A stretch of 64,000 nucleotides of DNA from Acetobacter peroxydans. Its GTDB lineage: Bacteria; Pseudomonadota; Alphaproteobacteria; Acetobacterales; Acetobacteraceae. Position 1 is the stretch's first letter. Each line of letters begins with the position of its first letter. Made by a program: the position numbers and the translations under genes. This document shows positions 11,884 through 56,509 of the stretch, one piece after another. Where the stretch lies: NCBI RefSeq assembly GCF_006539345.1, contig NZ_BJMV01000006.1, forward strand, positions 62,001-126,000. Direction: 5' to 3'. The notes under the pieces are model-generated. The model was not told the DNA's origin, did no database searches, and saw only the letters and a list, made by a program, of their open reading frames with translations.

Positions 11884-12162
11884 GTGGTCGCGTATGACCA
11901 TTGGCGGGCGGTTGTACGACAAGCCTGTTTTGCTATCTGCCATCATAGAAAAGCGGCACAAAGAAAATGGAAAGTACCCACATCCATCACAATCGCCCAA
12001 TGGATAATGGAAAGTGGCTCCGCAAAACGTATGTCCTCCCATTCCAATAGCCCATTTGGAATAAAAGCTGTCCGTGGAAAGCAGTTTGTCATGACGCCGT
12101 TCCGGGTTTTTGCCTCCATGGACGACGCATTCGATCCCGTTGAACCGATAGACGCTTTTTAG
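11884..12162 (+). pseudogene. Fragment of a muramidase/glucosaminidase (GH73, FlgJ-like)
   Basis: The 92-codon frame contains KWKVPTSITIAQWIMESG (candidate catalytic Glu in MESG), then SNSPFGIKA and MTPFRVFASMDDAFD. This is the order seen in GH73 glucosaminidases of phage endolysins and FlgJ, which cleave the peptidoglycan glycan chain. Family domains are about 150 residues or more; here the frame stops soon after the AFD motif and lacks the rest of the fold, so it is read as a truncated remnant. It opens an AT-rich patch continuing to about 12.9 kb, consistent with a decayed phage or mobile segment. Confidence 0.6.
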
Positions 12163-12192
12163 CTGAAAGATGGAATATCGGGAGCTGTCCTC

Positions 12193-12774
12193 TCAGAATA
12201 GCGTTCGCGCACGTTTGAACATATTACCCAAGAAAGACCTTATCGTAACAGTATTCCGTTGTTGGACGCTGAGGGTTTCTTCTCTATCCGTGTAACTAAA
12301 ATTACGAAAAACAAGGGAAGCCAGATTATTGTCCTGATCTAGATTCACGCTCAGATCATCCGCTAAAGAAAAGGTCTGATATGTGTCACGTTTCTCCCCG
12401 ATGTCGATATGGATAACGTGCTTGTCCCTGTCAATTTTGGCGGAAATATTCTCATGAAAATACAAATCTTCTGAGCTTGAATATATATTTTTCATTCCGA
12501 GCAGTGCTGGGGGATAATTATCAGGACCCCCTTCATATTTGAACTCCTCCTGCTTTGTGTGCCCAAAATATAAACTGAAAGAGCGCACTATATTCCCACA
12601 ACCAAGATAAAACCGAAGCGGAAAGATATCTATTACAGGAAAATTTTCCTTAAATCCAAATTGAGAGTCTATGTATTTCTGTATAGGCGTTCTTTTATCA
12701 AAGGAAGAAAGTGGATAAGCCATCTCAACATAAAGTTCGTAACGTGAGCAGGCAACGCTCAAATATGGCAACAC
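12193..12774 (-). CDS. Hypothetical orphan protein in an AT-rich patch
   Basis: No family is recognised in this 193-residue product. It is rich in Asp, Asn, Ser and aromatic residues, has no clear membrane segment, and its codons are far more AT-rich than those of its neighbours, suggesting recent transfer. The GTG at 12774 gives the longest form; an ATG at 12723 is the main alternative. Its start lies close to the GlxA-type regulator gene downstream on the window. A muramidase fragment lies on its other side. Confidence 0.55.
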   Translation of the reverse strand: MLPYLSVACSRYELYVEMAYPLSSFDKRTPIQKYIDSQFGFKENFPVIDIFPLRFYLGCGNIVRSFSLYFGHTKQEEFKYEGGPDNYPPALLGMKNIYSSSEDLYFHENISAKIDRDKHVIHIDIGEKRDTYQTFSLADDLSVNLDQDNNLASLVFRNFSYTDREETLSVQQRNTVTIRSFLGNMFKRARTLF

Positions 12775-12891
12775 GTCACAAGGCAGGATAGAGAATTTGA
12801 CGATATTAAAAGCCTATTTTTGATAAAATATTATAATTTATCAATATTTTCCCGCACGTTCTCTTCAGAAGGATCATGTCATAGGTTATCT

Positions 12892-13848
12892 CTAACAACT
12901 CGTACGAATATTTGCATTTCGTCTGACAGCTTGCGGTGGTTGACCGAACGCACGCAGGAATGCGCGCCGCATCCTTTCCGGGTCGTGAAAGCCAGTCATG
13001 GCGGCAATGGCTTCAATGGGGAGACTTGACTGCTCGACCCGTTCCCGTGCGGCCTCCAGCCGCAATCGCTCAACGGCTTTGGCTGGACTCATACCTACAG
13101 AAGACCGAAACGCCCGCGAGAAGTTTCGGGGGCTCATACCAACCCGCGCCGCAAGAGTTTCGACACTCAGACGTTGGGTCAGGTGAGAGCGGACCCACCC
13201 CAGAAGCGTGCCAAAGCGTTCCTCACCTCCTCCCATTTCCAGAAGGGCGGAGAACTGCGATTGCCCGCCGGGGCGATGGTAGAAAACCACCATCTGCTGC
13301 GCGGTGCGCCGTGCGGTTTGTTCGCCAAGGTCTTGGGTTATCAGCGCCAGACTCATATCAATACCCGCACTGATGCCGGCAGATGTCCAGACAGCGCCAT
13401 CGTGGACATAAATGGCATCTGCTTCGACTTTTACTTTTGGAAACAGCAGTTTTAAAAACTCAGCCTGCTGCCAGTGCGTGGTAACGCGGCAGCCGTCAAG
13501 CAGGCTCGCCGCCGCCAGCAAAAAAGCGCCGGAGCACACACTACAAATCCGCCGTGTATTCCTGCTCTGTTTCAGAATACAGTCGAGCAACTCGGGGGAT
13601 TTCATGGCTCTTTTATGCCCTTCACCCCCAACGACAATAAACGTATCAAAAAAATCATTGCTGGAACAGGCAACAGTATCAAGCGCCATACCAGACGAAG
13701 ATCGCACCAGACCACCATGAAGCGAAAGAGGCGTTACATGATAAGCGCCGCCCTTCAGCGTATCGGCAATCTCGAAGGCCGCTGTCACACCCGCGACATC
13801 GAGCAACTGGAAATCAGGATAAAGTAAAATGCCAACCTGTCTGATCAT
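12892..13848 (-). CDS. GlxA-family AraC-type transcriptional regulator
   Basis: The 318-residue protein joins an N-terminal DJ-1/PfpI-like glutamine amidotransferase-fold domain (about 1-175, GILLYPDFQLLDVAG at the start and CSVCSGAFLLAAA at the nucleophile elbow) to a C-terminal AraC double helix-turn-helix (about 215-315, with LAARVGMSPRNFSRAFR and MTGFHDPERMRRAFLRAFG). Such proteins are usually local transcription regulators that sense a small ligand. It diverges from a DUF1348 gene across 107 bases, its most likely target. Confidence 0.92.
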   Translation of the reverse strand: MIRQVGILLYPDFQLLDVAGVTAAFEIADTLKGGAYHVTPLSLHGGLVRSSSGMALDTVACSSNDFFDTFIVVGGEGHKRAMKSPELLDCILKQSRNTRRICSVCSGAFLLAAASLLDGCRVTTHWQQAEFLKLLFPKVKVEADAIYVHDGAVWTSAGISAGIDMSLALITQDLGEQTARRTAQQMVVFYHRPGGQSQFSALLEMGGGEERFGTLLGWVRSHLTQRLSVETLAARVGMSPRNFSRAFRSSVGMSPAKAVERLRLEAARERVEQSSLPIEAIAAMTGFHDPERMRRAFLRAFGQPPQAVRRNANIRTSC

Positions 13849-13955
13849 GGCTCAAAATGAGGGATCATTGTCCTTTCGTCAAATATCCGCATAGTCATAC
13901 TGGCAGGCATCGGATCACGCCGTGACCCGCTCCCACAACAGAGCCGGAACTTCCC

Positions 13956-14420
13956 ATGTCTCGCCCTCCCTTTCCTCCCTTCACCGCTGAAACGGCTGTG
14001 CAGAAAGTTCGTCTCGCTGAAAACGCATGGAACAGTCAGAGTCCTGAAAAAGTGGCACAGGCCTATACACCCGATAGCAGGTGGCGCAATCGCTCGGAAT
14101 TCGTCAAAGGCCGCGAGGAAATTATTGCCTTCCTCACCCGCAAATGGCAGCGGGAGCGGGAATACCGGCTGATCAAGGAGCTCTGGGCTTTTCGGGACAA
14201 CCGTATTGCTGTGCGTTTTGCCTATGAGTGGCAGGACACCGGCGGCCAATGGTTCCGATCGCATGGAAACGAAAACTGGGAATTCGATGCGGACGGGTTG
14301 ATGCGCTCCCGGATGGCATCAATCAATGACCAGCCTATTTCCGTCACGGAGCGCCTCTTCCACTGGACAACAGAACAACGGCCAGACGATCACCCCGGCC
14401 TGTCCATGCTGGGCTTGTGA
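13956..14420 (+). CDS. DUF1348 (SnoaL/NTF2-like) protein
   Basis: A 154-residue cytoplasmic protein of the nuclear-transport-factor-2 fold, DUF1348 branch. Hallmarks are the N-terminal [15 protein letters not shown], the [15 protein letters not shown] segment, [25 protein letters not shown] in the strand core, and MASINDQPI near the end. The biochemical role of the branch is unknown. The gene is divergent from a GlxA-type regulator, which suggests regulated, probably stress- or substrate-linked, expression. It ends at a strong bidirectional terminator. Confidence 0.88.
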
Positions 14421-37713: not shown

Positions 37714-38349
37714 TTAGGGCAACAGCACTTTCATATCGCGCAGGGCGGCAAACAGCGGCAACAGCGGCAATCCCTGTATGGTAAAGCTGTCTCCGCGCAC
37801 CTGTTCAAACAGGTGCAGACCCGGCCCTTCCAGCCGGTAAGCCCCCACACAGGACAGGCAGGCCGCACCTTCCAGAGCCAGATACTGCGCAAGGAACGAA
37901 TCAGAAAACGCGCGCATACTCAGATACGCCTGCTCGACATGCTGCCAGACAACCTGCCCACCCCGGCTCAGTACGACTGCCGTGTGCAGAGTATGAGTAC
38001 GGCCGCGCAGGGCTTCAAGCTGGCAGGCCGCCTGTTCCAGGGTCGGTGGCTTGTCGTACCAGCGCCCTTCACACGACAGCATCTGATCAGAGCCAATCAC
38101 CAATGTACGGGTATCCGCATTGATCGCCAGCGCCTTGGCCGTGGCCAGTTCCAGCGCCGTATCATCGACGCCGCGGCCCTCCACCTGCGCACGCTCACGG
38201 ATGGCCTGTTCGTCCACCTCCGGTCTGACACTCTCAAAAACCAGACCGGCATTTTCCAGCAGCCTTTTCCGGGCGGCAGAACCACTCGCCAGCAGAAGTG
38301 GTGTGCCCCTGTCCTGTAATGGAGTCGGCTTTAGTACTAAAGCAGTCAT
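37714..38349 (-). CDS. maf: Maf-family nucleotide pyrophosphatase
   Basis: The 211-residue Maf/Ham1-fold protein hydrolyses non-canonical or modified nucleoside triphosphates and was first linked to septum inhibition. The motif PLLLASGSAARKRLLENAGL (17-36), the VRPEVDE acidic site, ELATAKALAI and VIGSDQMLSCEG are all present. It lies directly beside the putative origin and diverges from hemE. Confidence 0.92.
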   Translation of the reverse strand: MTALVLKPTPLQDRGTPLLLASGSAARKRLLENAGLVFESVRPEVDEQAIRERAQVEGRGVDDTALELATAKALAINADTRTLVIGSDQMLSCEGRWYDKPPTLEQAACQLEALRGRTHTLHTAVVLSRGGQVVWQHVEQAYLSMRAFSDSFLAQYLALEGAACLSCVGAYRLEGPGLHLFEQVRGDSFTIQGLPLLPLFAALRDMKVLLP

Positions 38350-38716
38350 GGAATCGAGTCTCTTTCAGGTACTGGCGTGTCGGAGGGCTGTGAGTACTTT
38401 CCTGAGTACCGGGGTACATGTGGACTGTACGGGAAACAGAACAGGGCCGTACCGAGTACCGGGCACAACCCTGCAATATCATGAACGGGTGAGTTGTACA
38501 CAGGCTCGGTTTGGATAATTCGGGATAACCTTCGAAAACCCTTGTTTTGCAAGGCCCTGCAAACTGTACACACTGTGGGAAAAACGGGGTACGTTTTTGG
38601 AATACCGGGTACCCCGTCATCCACAGTACCCTTAAACCATATCAAACTCTTTTCTTTCTTTTTTATAGGGAATGGGGCGTGGACAGGGCGAACAAAGACG
38701 TGCAGGACTTCAGACC
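38350..38716. other. oriC: Putative chromosomal replication origin (oriC)
   Basis: This 367-base gap lies between divergent maf and hemE; hemE flanks oriC in Caulobacter and Rickettsia. On the plus strand TCATCCACA (38617-38625) is one base from the DnaA box TTATCCACA. On the minus strand TTATCCAAA (38510-38518) is one base away and TTATCCCGA (38520-38528) two. TTGTACACA (38494-38502) is weaker. The end near hemE (38632-38667) is AT-rich with a long pyrimidine run and could be the unwinding element. GTAC occurs 12 times between 38369 and 38629. Genes run away on both sides, and parS sites with parAB lie within 12 kb. Confidence 0.75.
38584..38617. repeat. 9-bp inverted repeat inside oriC
   Basis: ACGGGGTAC (38584-38592) and GTACCCCGT (38609-38617) are perfect inverted copies with 16 bases between. 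The right arm abuts the best DnaA-like box. It may be a protein-binding site in the origin. Confidence 0.6.
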
Positions 38717-39796
38717 ATGACAACGCAAGCTTCCATTCCCTCCGCCAAACGTCTGCTGAGAACCCTCAATGGTGAGGCACTCTGGCCGCCGCCGATGTGG
38801 CTGATGCGCCAGGCTGGCCGGTTTCTGCCGGAATTCCGGGCCATGCGGGAAAAAGCCGACTTTCTGACCCGTTGCATGACGCCGGATATCGCAACGGAAC
38901 TGACCCTCCAGCCGATCCGCCGGTTCGGGATGGACGGAGCCATACTGTTTTCCGATATCCTGATTTTGCCCTGGGCTATGGGGCAGTCCCTGCGGTTTGT
39001 TGCGGGAACCGGCCCGGTGCTGGGTGCGATCCGCTCGGAGCAGGATCTGCTTGCCCTTGACCCGGCGCGCATAGCCGAGGCGACGGCCCCGGTGCTCGAA
39101 ACCCTGACACGCCTGCGGGCCATTCTGGACGGGCCGGACGCCGTTGGAGTGGCAAAACCGGGCGGCACGACACTGCTGGGGTTCACCGGCTCGCCCTTTA
39201 CGGTGGCGTGCTACATGGTCGAAGGCAAAGGTTCGCGCGAATTCGCCATCACCCGCGAGATGGCTTTCAGGGAACCCGCCCTGTTTGACAGGCTGATTGC
39301 GCTGTTGACGGAAACCACGGCTGCTTATCTGTGCGCGCAGGTTGAAGCAGGAGCTGAAGCCGTCATGCTGTTTGATTCCTGGTCCGGCCTCCTGCCCCCT
39401 TCCGAGTTCCGGCGTCATGTCATTGCGCCTACACGGCAGATTGTGCAGGCCGTCAAGGCGCGGCACCCACATGTGCGGATTGTCGGCTTTCCGCGTCTGG
39501 CGGGGGTGATGATCGCGGAATACGCGCGGGAGACCGGGGTGGATGTGGTGGCACTTGATACCGGGGCCGACATGCGCACCGTAAGCACGCTTCTGCCGGA
39601 AACGCTGGGCGTGCAGGGCAATCTTGACCCCGTGGCTGTTCTGGCCGGTGGCGAAGCCATGCGGCGTGAGGCGCTGGCTATTCGTGAAGCCGGGCGGGGA
39701 CGAGCGCATGTGTTCAACCTCGGCCATGGCGTGCTGCCGGAAACGCCTGTCGAACATGTGGAAGATCTCGTGCGGACTGTAAGGGAAACGCCATAA
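38717..39796 (+). CDS. hemE: Uroporphyrinogen decarboxylase
   Basis: HemE decarboxylates uroporphyrinogen III to coproporphyrinogen III in heme synthesis. The 359-residue protein shows MWLMRQAGRFLPEF (Arg31 and Arg35 bind substrate carboxylates), AILFSDILILPWAMG, GFTGSPFTVACYMVEGKGSRE and NLGHGVLPETPVEHV. The ATG at 38717 gives the family-like N-terminus; the open frame extends upstream into oriC. Its stop overlaps the next start as TAATG. Confidence 0.97.
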   Translation: MTTQASIPSAKRLLRTLNGEALWPPPMWLMRQAGRFLPEFRAMREKADFLTRCMTPDIATELTLQPIRRFGMDGAILFSDILILPWAMGQSLRFVAGTGPVLGAIRSEQDLLALDPARIAEATAPVLETLTRLRAILDGPDAVGVAKPGGTTLLGFTGSPFTVACYMVEGKGSREFAITREMAFREPALFDRLIALLTETTAAYLCAQVEAGAEAVMLFDSWSGLLPPSEFRRHVIAPTRQIVQAVKARHPHVRIVGFPRLAGVMIAEYARETGVDVVALDTGADMRTVSTLLPETLGVQGNLDPVAVLAGGEAMRREALAIREAGRGRAHVFNLGHGVLPETPVEHVEDLVRTVRETP

Positions 39797-49250: not shown

Positions 49251-50203
49251 GCGGAACCGTAAAAAAAACAGCCGCCCGCCCCAGGCTAGGCCGTGGACTT
49301 GCTGCGCTTCTGGGTGATGCAGCCGTGGCACAGTCCGTCGCAACGTCAGCCGTCCAAGCGGCCGGTAAGGCTGCTTCGGAGCCTGGGGCGCAGCCTGTCG
49401 AGACAGCGCGGGTGATGGGGGTTAGCGCTCTTCCGGTGGAAGCGCTGGTGCCGGGGCCTTTCCAGCCGCGTCAGGATATGCACCCCGAAGCGCTGGAAGA
49501 ACTGGCCCAGTCCATTCGTGAACGTGGGATTTTGCAGCCGATTCTCGTCAGGCCGGACCCGGCTCAGCCGGGGCAGTATCAGATTATTGCCGGTGAACGC
49601 CGCTGGCGGGCCGCACAGCTTGCGCAGTGCCACGATGTGCCCGTGCATGTGCGAGACCTTGACGAAGCAGACGCCATGGCGGCGGCGCTTGTGGAAAATC
49701 TGCAACGCGCGGATCTGAACCCGGTTGAAGAAGCCGAGGGGCTGAACCGCCTGCAGGAGGAATACAACCTCACGCAGGAAGACCTGGCCAAGGCCATCGG
49801 TAAATCCCGCCCCCATGTTGCCAACATGCTGCGCCTTCTGCGCCTGCCCGAAGCCGTGCGGACAGAACTGAAAACCGGAGCGCTGTCAGCGGGTCATGCC
49901 AGGGCGCTGCTGTCGCACCCTAACCCTATCGCCGCCGCGGCAGAGGTTATCAGCCGTGGCCTATCGGTCCGGCAGACGGAAGCGCTTGTGCAGAAAGCCT
50001 TGAGCCAGCCCGGCAGCACGGCGGTGGCACCGGTGGACAAAGTGGCTAAAGATTCCGAAATTAAGGCGCTGGAGCGTGATCTGGGGAGTCGGCTTGGATT
50101 GCGGGTGGCCGTGAAATTCAACGGACATCAGAGCGGTTCGCTCGAAATCCACTACAAAAATCTCGACCAGCTCGATGTTGTGCTGGCTTTGTTAAAATCT
50201 TGA
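49247..50203 (+). CDS. parB: Chromosome partition protein ParB
   Basis: ParB binds parS and spreads as a CTP-dependent clamp. The 318-residue protein has [14 protein letters not shown] at the N-terminus, the CTP-binding box [11 protein letters not shown] with QPILVRP before it, the helix-turn-helix [37 protein letters not shown], and a C-terminal dimerisation domain. Its ATG overlaps the parA stop by four bases (ATGA). Confidence 0.97.
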
Positions 50204-50271
50204 TTTTTATGGCTTGTGCAAGGGCGGAAGAGGTGTTAGAAAGCGCCTACTTCAGCCCGAACAGGCTGTAA

Positions 50272-50347
<76 letters not shown>

Positions 50348-50861
50348 ATCTTTTCCTTAGGTTTTGGTGGTTTTAAGGTTTCAGGCTGGCAGGGTGTCCA
50401 GCCTTCCGGAGTCATTTGAAGCTGCGTTTTCTGAGCTGGTATGAGGCAGGGGTCTTTCTCGCCATCAGCCCTCTTCCCCCAAAATCTAATAGCTTTTCTC
50501 CTCCTACTCTCCGTGCATTTTTTTGGTTCAATTTCGCGGATGCAAAAAATGGCTATGGAGCGATCCCGGTGCTCATGTCCGTGAGAGATTGAATCCCCTT
50601 ATCCCTATGGGCATCTCTGCGGTTAAAAAAATGATTGTTTTCAAGCGACAGAAAAAATTACCAAATGCGGTTGAAGTGCTCAAGATCATTCAGATTTTCA
50701 TTTGCTCTCCGGCCTTGTCTCTATCAACTCGGTTTCTTGTTGAACGACATAGTCTCGAATGAACAGCGCTTCGCGCTATGCACATTACAATTGCTCAGAG
50801 ACCATGTAAGCATCCAACCTGCGTTTGCACTATAGTGAGGTGCGGCGGGATATGACGGTCT
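50348..50861. other. Gene-free AT-rich spacer after tRNA-Lys
   Basis: No convincing coding region, RNA or regulatory structure was found. Base composition shifts sharply to lower GC than in parB. The stretch is probably decayed foreign DNA. Confidence 0.5.
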
Positions 50862-51122
50862 GTGTGTTGGGCGGTTTGCTCCCGCGGCCAAGGTTTGTTA
50901 GCACCTGAGTTATGTGGACGGAAGAAGGGCAAGACTGCATCACGAGATCTGCCGCGCATGATAGAAGCGATTTTTGGCATCATGAGAACGGTGCAAAATG
51001 GTGGAGTGATTTTTCTCCATTCCTTTAAAATTCTAACAATATTAGTTAGAAATGGGACAATAAATACTATGTACGAAAATTGTATTATGATTTCTAGAGA
51101 CCCGACTCATATTGTGATGTAA
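50862..51122 (+). pseudogene. Possible remnant of an IS5-type transposase
   Basis: The 86-codon frame contains ELCGRKKGKTASRDLPRMIEAIFGIMRT. Its spacing and residues resemble the N-terminal region of IS5-family (DUF4096-like) transposases, where a GRP...DLREVLNAI.Y.LRTG pattern is usual. The DDE core, inverted repeats and target duplications are missing, so it is at most a fragment. The remainder of the frame looks unrelated. Confidence 0.35.
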
Positions 51123-51197
51123 GATCCAAGGGAAAATAAAAATTGTGAAAAAAATCCTCTATCCGTAAAAACATTACAATTCAAGGCGCATAGATAA

Positions 51198-51932
51198 ATG
51201 GATCAGTTGGTAATTGTGTCAATATGCAATTTTGCAGCGTGTGCTTGTTTATGTTTAATGTCTGAGTATGAGAAAGCAAAAAGAATTTCTTTATTTGTTG
51301 CTTTTTTTACTATTCTGTTATTATCAAACATATTTATTTACGAATTAAATTACATCCCCGACATTTTTTTATTTATAACGGCGCCGGCGCTGTGGGTTTT
51401 CTTTGTTTTTATTAATTTTATTATTGATAATACTATGTTTGGGGTGTTTATTAATTCTCTGTATTTAAAAAAAGATGGCAATCAGATACATTCAATTTTT
51501 TTGGTTTTCTCTATTTTCTTTGTATTGATAATTGAATTTTTGGCTATGTATTATTCCGCCATATACACAACAAATAGGAATAAGTTTCTAGAACAAGCCA
51601 GATGGCTGAGCCATTATTTTATTACAAGTCCATATAAATGCACATTTTTATTTATTTTTATGGCGTTCATAATGTTTTTTATTAGGGAGAATGCGAGAGT
51701 TTTTTACGCCGGCATGGAGTTTATTTTTGGGGTTATTGTATTAAACAATAGTATGTCAGCAATAATTGGATCGAATAATGATAATTTTGAAGAGATGTTT
51801 TTGAAGGTTCTTGTTGGGTTGGCATCTGGTGTATATATTATTATTCGATCCCTAGATAATTTTGGTAAATATATAACAAAAGACTTATCGGAACGAAATA
51901 AGTTTAGATATATTTGGAGTAGAATTATATAG
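51198..51932 (+). CDS. Orphan multi-pass membrane protein, very AT-rich
   Basis: No family is recognised. The 244-residue product has six or seven hydrophobic segments (about 4-21, 31-50, 53-77, 98-121, 144-163, 172-187, 203-221), with few charged residues and a basic C-terminus (ERNKFRYIWSRII). Codons are overwhelmingly A/T-ending, unlike the rest of the chromosome, so the gene was probably acquired recently. AAGG ten bases before the ATG may be its ribosome site. It could be a phage, defence or transport protein; nothing in the sequence decides. Confidence 0.6.
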   Translation: MDQLVIVSICNFAACACLCLMSEYEKAKRISLFVAFFTILLLSNIFIYELNYIPDIFLFITAPALWVFFVFINFIIDNTMFGVFINSLYLKKDGNQIHSIFLVFSIFFVLIIEFLAMYYSAIYTTNRNKFLEQARWLSHYFITSPYKCTFLFIFMAFIMFFIRENARVFYAGMEFIFGVIVLNNSMSAIIGSNNDNFEEMFLKVLVGLASGVYIIIRSLDNFGKYITKDLSERNKFRYIWSRII

Positions 51933-52566
51933 TTATTCGTAATGTTAATAGAGCATGTTGTGTTAAGGCGTCCGACACTACTACCTTGTTCCATCTGGGG
52001 CATGGTGCTGGTAAATGACTACAACGCTCGTAATGGTGACCTCCGTATGGTACAGCACTCTATCGACTACATGAGGGACATTCCTAGCCGGGTCATAGGT
52101 ATTGAGATGCGACCTTTTGCGGTGGATGTTTGAGGCAAGGCCCTGCTGGTGAGGTCGAGTAAATTGTCGCGGAAGTCTGGCACCAGTCTCTCTCCTGCAC
52201 TCGTTGATGCCGTTTTCCGGAGTTAATCCGGTTTCATGTGAAACAATTGTTTCAAGCTGCACTCTGCATGGGGCATGGGTTTTTCCGTCCCGGGTTTTGT
52301 CTCGGTAGAAACCTGACAGCTTTCTCCCTCGCATTATCTCTATGTCGTTTGCGGCAATGTCGCGGCTGCGAAGGCTCGTGCGCGGTGTGATGACGTCGTA
52401 TCCGTAGGCGGCGCGGTTGCTCTGCATAGTCAGATGCAGGCTTGCTAAATGCGCCTGACAGCCCTGCATAAATAGTCATCATATAATAAGTTTTAATAAT
52501 CGAACCTTGAATACAGGTGCGGCGTAAATAAATACTGTTACAGTTCTGTTAAACGAGGGCGGTCTG
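51933..52566. other. Gene-poor end of the AT-rich island
   Basis: No recognisable gene was found. The longest frame, 52469 to 51981 on the minus strand (162 codons), matches no family known to me and has no clear ribosome site. The region includes the parS-like site at 52230 and returns to higher GC toward 52.5 kb. Confidence 0.45.
52230..52245. promoter_or_regulatory. Degenerate parS-like site
   Basis: GGTTTCATGTGAAACA differs from TGTTTCACGTGAAACA at two positions (first base and the central C to T). It overlaps a perfect 16-bp palindrome TGAAACAATTGTTTCA at 52239-52254. It lies in the AT-rich island about 2 kb beyond parB and could be a weak or former ParB site. Confidence 0.4.
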
Positions 52567-54707: not shown

Positions 54708-55910
54708 GGGTTCGCGGTCCATCAGCAGGGCCGTGACAGCCTTTTTAAAGGGCGTGAAACGCTCGGCCAGTCGCAGACCAGCCTCGCGGATCTGGCGGAA
54801 GGGGGGCCCATCGTGCGTGTAGAGCGAGGCGATCCCGTTTGTGCCAGCAAACAGGGGAGCCGTGGCCATGCGATGCTGGCGCTCGAACTGGCGCAGCCCC
54901 TGCGCGCTGCCCGCATCGCCCGTGCGGGCAACTGCCGCGGCTACGGCGTCCACGAGCGTCTTCTGCCCTTTCAGACCCAGGTTGAAGCCGTGGGCGGTAA
55001 TAGGGTGCATCCCCACCGCGGCATCGCCCACAAGAGCCAGCCTGCGGGCCGTGAACCGGTGGGCATAGACGCCTTTCAGCGGATAGACATGCCGTGTGCT
55101 GACAAGCCGCATGGCCCCCAGCCGTCGGCCGACACGCTCGGTCACTTCGGCGTTGAAAGCCTCACGCGGGAGGGTTTGCATCCGCTGGATTTCGGCGGGC
55201 TCCAGTGTCAGCACCAGAGATGAGGCCCGCCCGTTGACTGGCAGCAGCGCGATGGTCTGGCCTTCGTCGAACCATTGCAGGGCAACATTGTGGTGCGCGG
55301 AATCGTGTGCCATGCGGCAGACAAGCATGGAGCGCCCGAAATCGTGGATAACGGCTCCAATCCCCGCCCGCCTGCGGGTGGGAGAGAACCGGCCATCGGC
55401 ACCAACGACAAGGCGGGCGTTAATCCGGCTGTTGCCAAAATGGATCGCCGCGTAGTCCTGCCCCTGCCGGATCGTATCCACTTCGGTATTCGCCAGCAGC
55501 GTCAGCCCCGGCTGGCGGCTGGCTGCGGCAAACAGGGCCCGGCGGATCAGGCTGTTGGAAACCAGCCAGCCCAGTGCCTCGACGCCTTCGCCCTGCGTGT
55601 CAAACCGCAGAGGGTGGCGGAAGCTCCCGGTTTCCACCCTGGCTTCCTTGAGCGGGCAGACAACGGCCGAGGGAATGAAGTCCCAGGCACCGGCCTGCTT
55701 GAGCAGGCGGACGGATTCATGCGTAAGGGCGATTTCACGCCCGTCAAAACCCGGCTCTTCCCACAGGTTTTTGGGGCCGCGTTCCAGAACGGTGGTGCGG
55801 AGCCCGGCCTTGGCCATCATCAGGGCTGTGGCCAGCCCGACAGGGCCGCCGCCGACCACGACAACGTCGGCTGTGCTGGAAGCCGGGGCATTTTTCTGAC
55901 TGTCTGTCAT
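54696..55910 (-). CDS. UbiH/UbiF/COQ6-type FAD monooxygenase
   Basis: A 404-residue aromatic-ring hydroxylase of ubiquinone synthesis. It has the FAD motif VVVGGGPVGLATALMMAKAG (17-36), the middle RxxL-type segment and GDAAVGMHPITAHGFNLGLKGQ near the C-terminus. The HPITAHGFN wording, rather than HPIAGQGFN, resembles the UbiM branch; this is tentative. The ATG at 55910 overlaps the nitroreductase stop (ATGA), so the two genes are co-translated. Confidence 0.88.
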   Translation of the reverse strand: MTDSQKNAPASSTADVVVVGGGPVGLATALMMAKAGLRTTVLERGPKNLWEEPGFDGREIALTHESVRLLKQAGAWDFIPSAVVCPLKEARVETGSFRHPLRFDTQGEGVEALGWLVSNSLIRRALFAAASRQPGLTLLANTEVDTIRQGQDYAAIHFGNSRINARLVVGADGRFSPTRRRAGIGAVIHDFGRSMLVCRMAHDSAHHNVALQWFDEGQTIALLPVNGRASSLVLTLEPAEIQRMQTLPREAFNAEVTERVGRRLGAMRLVSTRHVYPLKGVYAHRFTARRLALVGDAAVGMHPITAHGFNLGLKGQKTLVDAVAAAVARTGDAGSAQGLRQFERQHRMATAPLFAGTNGIASLYTHDGPPFRQIREAGLRLAERFTPFKKAVTALLMDREPSTP

Positions 55911-56509
55911 TGTGCGTTGTTCCTGTCCTGCGCGAACACGGCGGGCGTGCCATCCCACATCGCCATGAACCCGGCAGAGTCCGGGCGCGATGGGGCGGGC
56001 AGCGGCGCATCCGGCGTGCCGACAAAAAGGAAACCCGCCAGCCTGTGGGGGGCTTCAAACCCGAATTCCGCTGCCAGAACCGGGTCCTCCGTTATGGGGC
56101 CGGAAACCCAGATGCCGCCAAAGCCTTCGGCATACAGGGCGTTGAGGATATTCATGGCTCCCGCCCCCACGCTCATTTCCTGCTCCCAGAGCGGGATTTT
56201 ATGCTCCGGTCGCAGGTGCATACCCAGTACGATGGTCATGGGCATGGTGGCCATACGCTGGCGGCGTTTGTCGAGATTGAACTGCGGGGTTTGGGGGGCC
56301 ACCCGCAGGGTGCTGGCCACGACCTTTTCCGCCAGAATGGCGCGGGCCGCCCCCTGTACGATCACATAGCGCCAGGGCTGGAGCCGCCCATGGTCCGGGG
56401 CGCGCAGGGCTGTGGCCAGAATCTGCTCAAGCTGCGCGCCAGCGGGAGCCGGGTCTTTCAGCCGGTCGGTGGAAGCGCGGGAGAGAAGAACATCCATAGG
56501 CGAGGTCAT
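55907..56509 (-). CDS. YdjA-type nitroreductase
   Basis: A 200-residue flavin nitroreductase-fold protein with the YdjA pattern: LLSRASTDRLKDPAPAGAQLEQIL at the start, ALRAPDHGRLQPWRYVIV, and WEQEMSVGAGAMNILNALYAEGFGGIWVSGPITEDP. YdjA-like enzymes bind FMN and reduce nitro or quinone compounds, but their natural substrate is uncertain. It lies 101 bases downstream of the HIT gene, so it may extend the his transcript. Confidence 0.9.
   Translation of the reverse strand: MTSPMDVLLSRASTDRLKDPAPAGAQLEQILATALRAPDHGRLQPWRYVIVQGAARAILAEKVVASTLRVAPQTPQFNLDKRRQRMATMPMTIVLGMHLRPEHKIPLWEQEMSVGAGAMNILNALYAEGFGGIWVSGPITEDPVLAAEFGFEAPHRLAGFLFVGTPDAPLPAPSRPDSAGFMAMWDGTPAVFAQDRNNAQ

Follow-up and report, generated by a model that had tools for sequence, protein, structure and literature searches.

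To our knowledge, Dam/SeqA is the main case in which the mechanism that links origin methylation to replication control is understood, and the E. coli origin, oriC, carries 11 GATC words in about 245 bp. The Caulobacter origin is linked to hemE and operates with CtrA, DnaA and CcrM, the CtrA sites being paired TTAA words of the form TTAA-N7-TTAA. Conserved motif clusters of four orphan methyltransferases, all of them at putative origins, are described in the main text of Blow et al. 2016 (PMC4752239), with TTAA as the word in Arthrobacter, CTCGAG in Nocardia and CTAG in Haloarchaea; neither GTAC nor Acetobacter appears in that main text.

Here we describe a dense array of GTAC words in the window, i.e. 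the whole stretch of 64,000 nucleotides of Acetobacter peroxydans DNA that was analysed. The array is real and widely kept in the family, and it most likely represents a methylation-controlled origin module.

A GTAC cluster at the replication origin

The 367-bp stretch between maf and hemE (38350-38716) contains GTAC 12 times, each at the exact position listed by the sequence-only reading, which had also taken this number for an excess over chance. That it is: dinucleotide-preserving shuffles of the same stretch contain about two GTACs (mean 2.13, maximum 9), 12 were reached in 0/20,000 of them, and elsewhere in the 64 kb no 261-bp window contains more than 5. GTAC is by far the commonest palindromic tetramer in this stretch, followed by TGCA with 4 occurrences; AGCT is absent from the gap. 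Tight triples of the form GTAC-N0-20-GTAC-N0-20-GTAC number 14 genome-wide, and 6 of these lie inside the gap. The core sites have a fixed spacing in the window (8, 13, 22 and 7 bp), and the 9-bp inverted repeat proposed earlier is indeed present. The features of the gap and of its flanking genes are listed below with their strand where one applies; the DnaA-box-like words and the unwinding element are putative in function, and fractions refer to an alignment of 33 gaps from 19 genera, all preselected for at least six GTACs.

37714-38349, minus strand: maf, open reading frame (Pfam Maf, E 4.4e-41)
38351-38360: GAATC and GAGTC, two CcrM-type (GANTC) words next to maf
38369-38372: GTAC site 1, conserved mainly at genus level
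38394-38397: GTAC site 2, conserved mainly at genus level
38406-38409: GTAC site 3, in 23/33 aligned gaps (column 197)
38414-38417: GTAC site 4, in 32/33 (column 205)
38427-38430: GTAC site 5, in 27/33 (column 218)
38449-38452: GTAC site 6, in 28/33 (column 240)
38456-38459: GTAC site 7, in 32/33 (column 247)
38494-38502, plus strand: DnaA-box-like word TTGTACACA, two mismatches to TTATCCACA, overlapping GTAC site 8
38496-38499: GTAC site 8, in 33/33 (column 300), within the DnaA-box-like TTGTACACA
38510-38518, minus strand: DnaA-box-like word TTATCCAAA
38520-38528, minus strand: DnaA-box-like word TTATCCCGA
38566-38569: GTAC site 9, in 32/33 (column 372), reading CTGTACACA here and often TTGTACACA in relatives
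38574-38582, minus strand: DnaA-box-like word TTTCCCACA
38584-38592 and 38609-38617: arms of the 9-bp inverted repeat
38589-38592: GTAC site 10, in 33/33 (column 395), in the left arm of the inverted repeat
38609-38612: GTAC site 11, in 33/33 (column 415), in the right arm of the inverted repeat, reading GTACCCCgtcATCCACA
38617-38625, plus strand: DnaA-box-like word TCATCCACA, adjoining GTAC sites 11 and 12
38626-38629: GTAC site 12, conserved in the genus alignment
38630-38667: candidate unwinding element, A+T-rich and partly pyrimidine-rich, similar in relatives
38672-39796, plus strand: hemE, open reading frame with a later ATG at 38717 (Pfam URO-D, E 1.5e-109)

A hemE homologue is present in 199/200 genomes of the order, all of them belonging to one family. 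The DNA upstream of hemE was examined in 110 genomes and then in 28 more, that is in 138 of the 199 with a hemE match; one of these (G118, locus L013), with hemE at a contig end, was left out, and 137 genomes were counted. A gap with 6-15 GTACs occurs in 82 of the first 110. The excess in related Acetobacteraceae, on which the sequence-only reading had made its proposal depend, does exist, being seen upstream of hemE in 84 of the 99 genomes with the methyltransferase MTase-2 described below. Among the literature matches listed, none reports GTAC at the origins of acetic acid bacteria or methylomes of this group.

GTACs stand out as conserved blocks in the genus alignment, and eight GTAC columns are kept in at least 80% of the 33 aligned gaps, as against at most three columns kept at 80% for other tetramers. 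Their flanks vary between sites, yet are often conserved at a given site. Over 931 sites in these 82 gaps (likewise preselected for at least six GTACs, and the source of the 33 aligned ones), flank preferences are weak, no position exceeding 58% for one base, and no motif longer than GTAC emerges. The earlier suggestion that several sites share GAGTACC is therefore only partly borne out: exact copies lie at 38404 and 38454, and there are just these two. Since the gaps were preselected for GTAC, the number of sites is a selected quantity, while their fixed places and the variety of their flanks are not, and the persistence of GTAC columns with differing flanks argues that the common word is GTAC itself. 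Judged by its letters, a 4-bp palindrome with free flanks has the appearance that would be expected of a methyltransferase target. The GTACCCCgtcATCCACA form of site 11 is also present upstream of hemE in basal relatives, and site 11 is probably the oldest site of the cluster.

The sequence-only reading had seen no resemblance to DnaA or CtrA sites. As regards CtrA this is correct: a single TTAA occurs in 38350-38716, which makes a TTAA-N7-TTAA pair impossible, and CtrA sites were rejected on this ground. As regards DnaA it is correct only in part, in that most of the conserved GTACs fall outside DnaA-like words, but GTACs and DnaA-box-like words are interleaved, and site 8 sits in TTGTACACA, which is near a DnaA box. 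The maf edge of the gap has a peculiarity of its own. GANTC is strongly depleted in the window (85 occurrences in 1-64000 versus 187 expected), and despite this depletion two GANTC words stand side by side there (38351 and 38356); a CGAGTC word at the same edge is conserved in the genus alignment.

We take the GTAC cluster to form the core of the chromosome's origin of replication. GC skew turns inside the window near 38 kb, and the cumulative G-C minimum falls at 38290, in support of the origin location claimed earlier. Two genera (g13 and g37) were at first read as having lost the cluster; this reading was rejected, as the cluster was found displaced along with the origin, about 20-32 kb from hemE, in 5/5 genomes of g13 and 3/3 genomes of g37 in our set. 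Skew at displaced clusters was examined over 100 kb in two genomes, one per genus: the cumulative minimum lies at 55550 and the cluster at 55932-56131 in G099, and at 206317 and 206330-206545, respectively, in G167, in neither case at hemE. The cluster hence coincides with a local skew minimum in three genomes including the window, and this coincidence at the displaced clusters implies that the GTACs stayed with the origin when origin and hemE separated. What is found here is thus a dense cluster of one word in non-coding DNA at an origin, GTAC being its presumed methylation word. Stretches of low G+C flank the origin on both sides, at 12001-14000 (0.49) and 50001-52000 (0.40).

MTase-2 and its co-distribution with the cluster

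The genome carries two PF01555 methylases. The first is CcrM-like by size and score, and a match that strong was obtained in 48/48 genomes. The second, which we call MTase-2, is a beta-class enzyme of 282 aa (G000:C1:33506-34354) encoded directly after a Tim44/TimA-type gene. It bears the motif TSPPYN, which is of the cytosine-N4 type; the same motif occurs in a solved cytosine-N4 enzyme of a rotifer, and PvuII has SPPY. The value of TSPPY as an N4C marker was checked because the N6A enzyme M.BceJIV is structurally close, and that enzyme has DPPY instead. A structural model of MTase-2 built with 17 orthologues (mean pLDDT 73.5, with 64/282 residues below 50) gives a predicted fold that matches CcrM, the rotifer enzyme, BceJIV and PvuII.

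A profile search of the order places MTase-2 in 119/200 genomes, each at 1e-113 or below, the remainder having no match at 1e-60; of 385 genomes of the class, 4 matched at 1e-50, all from its own family. Relatives in other families (Caulobacteraceae, Methylosinus and Paracoccus), with identities of up to about 59%, nonetheless turned up when named contigs were scanned. Upstream of the MTase-2 relative, tim44 is found in 43 of 80 genome loci, with mltA between the two in 34, and the scan of these 80 loci found no RsaI-type partner beside the tim44/mltA-linked copies. MTase-2 is thus a clade-wide methyltransferase without an RsaI-type partner endonuclease in the family, RsaI-type open reading frames having been detected in 2/80 loci. 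Its gene lies 7.6-7.8 kb from hemE in G178 and G183.

In G182, with a contig that matches Acetobacter thailandicus LMG 30826, the search for the standard copy of MTase-2 was negative. About 11 kb away from hemE this genome encodes a divergent relative (L214:4419-5327, 53% identical, with TSPPYN), and decay has affected several of the GTAC sites in its gap. G025 has a second MTase-2 relative (L213:6346-7479) near a phage-type integrase; the open reading frame next to it is not RsaI-like and belongs to PHROG 3816, and the whole may be a mobile element with a host-like methylation mark.

Cluster and enzyme largely occur together. MTase-2 is present in 99 of the 137 genomes counted, among which 84 carry at least six GTACs within 450 bp upstream of hemE, 8 show a displaced cluster, and 7 have between one and four sites (one in G153, G155 and G177, two in G175, three in G178 and G183, four in G029); a displaced cluster was sought in these seven and not found. 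The 38 genomes without MTase-2 have no GTAC in 26 cases, one in 10 and two in 2, with three or more in none. When kinship is taken into account, at least three sites (displaced clusters counted) are seen in 94/98 genomes with the enzyme and 0/36 without it, a co-distribution that is not significant after this correction because only two independent pairs sit on well-supported branches.

On the hemE tree, from which G182, G078 and G064 were omitted for a broken hemE translation, the 91 rows of the acetic acid clade include just two genomes without MTase-2, G003 and G146. Both are without the cluster, and both are long branches of unsure place on the tree. MltA was not found in either of them in a search run without a positive control, which raises the possibility that MTase-2 went together with its neighbours. 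Both genomes are reduced; the gap upstream of hemE is filled by repeated TGTGGATAA-type DnaA-box words in G003 (L092), and a few such words stand upstream of hemE in G146 (L191). The terminal site GTACCCC-NNN-ATCCACA is present in the absence of MTase-2 in G019 and G065. The gradient in GTAC number is consistent with a history in which the enzyme was gained first and GTACs then accumulated step by step in a pre-existing origin of the DnaA type.

Target word, proposed mechanism and alternatives

RsaI cuts GTAC. M.RsaI makes m4C at this word, according to PMC6256690, and RsaI-type endonucleases turn up beside some relatives of MTase-2. Eleven phage records match MTase-2 with 43-51% identity, and in 4 of them (Syn19 and ACG-2014j, two each) a gene that the depositors labelled R.RsaI overlaps the relative; phage ACG-2014f has no R.RsaI-type neighbour beside its relative. 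An RsaI-type endonuclease open reading frame abuts the relative upstream in 30/81 viral loci and lies 1.2 kb away in one more; the remaining 50, including the closest match (L241, 64%), are without one. The viral pairs (L242-L274, L312) are compact, endonuclease and methyltransferase overlapping in 29 and being 8 bp apart in one. The enzyme of the viral contig L241 (L241:2158-2904), 64% identical to MTase-2, stands near the Acetobacteraceae ones, and the stretch examined around it contains no RsaI-type open reading frame.

Among the 80 genome loci, an RsaI-type homologue directly follows 59-60% identical enzymes in two, a Caulobacteraceae genome (L323) and an Acetobacteraceae MAG, neither of which is a tim44/mltA copy; the endonuclease frames there are distant homologues, with about 26-30% identity and E-values of 8.6e-9 and 7.3e-7. 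PADLOC matches the Syn19 endonuclease to a type II restriction enzyme and does not recognise the Caulobacteraceae one. Scanned alone over genome contigs and plasmids, the R.RsaI-type endonuclease profile found nothing.

Orphan m4C enzymes for GTAC are described in PMC10609329 for archaea, namely HG10 (8/8 Nitrososphaerales) and HG18 (6/6 of the Methanoregula/Methanospirillum group), as are AGCT m4C enzymes in Methanoculleus and Nitrososphaerales. The archaeal relatives of MTase-2 include two Nitrososphaera loci (45-46% identical) and a match in Methanoculleus (52%), and because AGCT enzymes occur in the same archaea, the archaeal comparison does not fix the word of MTase-2. From its motif and its relatives we infer that MTase-2 methylates GTAC and that the mark is m4C.

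We consider it likely that the GTACs of this origin core are the targets of MTase-2 as an orphan RsaI-type methyltransferase, that the mark is probably m4C, and that it would time re-initiation in a Dam-like manner. MTase-2, a vertically inherited orphan, would probably place N4-methylcytosine on both strands of GTAC, so that just after replication each of the dozen GTACs at the origin would be hemimethylated. Hemimethylation may alter binding by DnaA or another reader, and the altered binding could block or time re-initiation until MTase-2 had restored full methylation. The GATC density of oriC and the origin clusters of Blow et al. suggest, by analogy, that GTAC marking may affect DnaA loading and that the mark may control initiation. 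Among the three readings offered by the sequence-only reading (sites for an initiation factor, sites for a sequestration factor, or a methylation signal), the methylation signal is now the one best supported, if indirectly, because GTAC alone is common to the sites, because an orphan N4-type methyltransferase tracks the cluster, and because part of the relatives of that enzyme are paired with RsaI-type endonucleases.

A more far-reaching version, to which we give slightly less than an even chance, is that an m4C switch at GTAC times replication in acetic acid bacteria independently of Dam/SeqA. A restriction methyltransferase of the RsaI type would have been captured and become an orphan housekeeping enzyme, and an ancestral alphaproteobacterial origin would have been filled stepwise with GTAC, from 1-3 sites in basal lineages through 4-6 in genus g8 to 6-16 in acetic acid bacteria. 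Hemimethylation would then be read by DnaA directly or by another reader, alongside the CcrM-like enzyme.

The GTACs could instead be binding sites of a sequence-specific initiation or silencing protein, for example a TetR- or GntR-like dimer, to which MTase-2 is unrelated. The fixed core spacing suits an array of bound protein, and the SlmA operator, a 12-bp palindrome (GTGAGTACTCAC), likewise has GTAC in its middle; one site of the cluster reads TGTGAGTACT. The flanks of the 931 GTAC sites, however, do not show this consensus, and SlmA-like or GntR-like sites were rejected because flanks are not shared over them. As nothing longer than GTAC and only weak preferences emerge, the protein would have to read 4 bp, which is unusual for a protein and normal for a methyltransferase, and the largely coincident distributions of cluster and MTase-2 also speak against this explanation, which we regard as rather unlikely. 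A DnaA of this lineage that reads words like TTGTACACA would make the GTAC count a by-product of variant DnaA sites; five DnaA-box-like words do lie among the GTACs, and tTGTACACA is the form that two of the best-conserved sites take in most relatives. Nevertheless, most of the conserved GTACs (GAGTACT, GGGTACA, CGTACCGA, GGGTACCCC) lie outside DnaA-like words, for which reason this was rejected as the main explanation, and those relatives without MTase-2 that were inspected keep DnaA-like words with hardly any GTAC; we deem it very unlikely.

A slimmer chance still attaches to the idea that MTase-2 methylates GTAC just for protection from restriction and that the origin cluster is silent or structural. 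The relatives beside RsaI-type endonucleases in phages and at two bacterial loci would agree with it, but the fixed place of the gene after tim44, often with mltA between and with no RsaI-type partner, does not, and it would leave the column-by-column retention of GTAC at the origin unexplained.

Comparison with known origin systems

The Caulobacter origin resembles the present one in being an alphaproteobacterial origin beside hemE, and differs in its paired CtrA sites (TTAA-N7-TTAA), which are absent from the gap here. M.RsaI and the archaeal HG10 and HG18 enzymes share with MTase-2 the m4C mark at GTAC that is predicted for it, and the accessible text of PMC6256690 and PMC10609329 mentions no cluster of their sites at an origin. 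The systems covered by the main text of Blow et al. 2016 (PMC4752239) are alike in that an origin cluster goes together with an orphan methyltransferase; in Haloarchaea the mark is m4C as well. They are unlike in their words, none of which is GTAC, and in their lineages.

A close parallel is Dam/GATC/SeqA at E. coli oriC, where a dense palindromic 4-bp word, there a methylation word, is likewise interleaved with DnaA boxes and the orphan methyltransferase is likewise conserved in the clade. In contrast to that system, the word here is GTAC and not GATC, the predicted mark is m4C and not m6A, the enzyme is of the beta class, and there is, besides, an enzyme resembling CcrM in size and score; SeqA (PF03925) was found in 0/27 genomes, with a positive control in E. 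coli. What is new is the word GTAC at an origin, together with a probable m4C mark. If the proposal is true, this lineage would use a methyl mark at its origin that is separate from that of the CcrM-like enzyme it also has. It would moreover supply a second well-sampled example, evolved independently of Dam/SeqA and based on another word and probably another modified base, and the comparison with Dam/SeqA would show what such clusters need and do.
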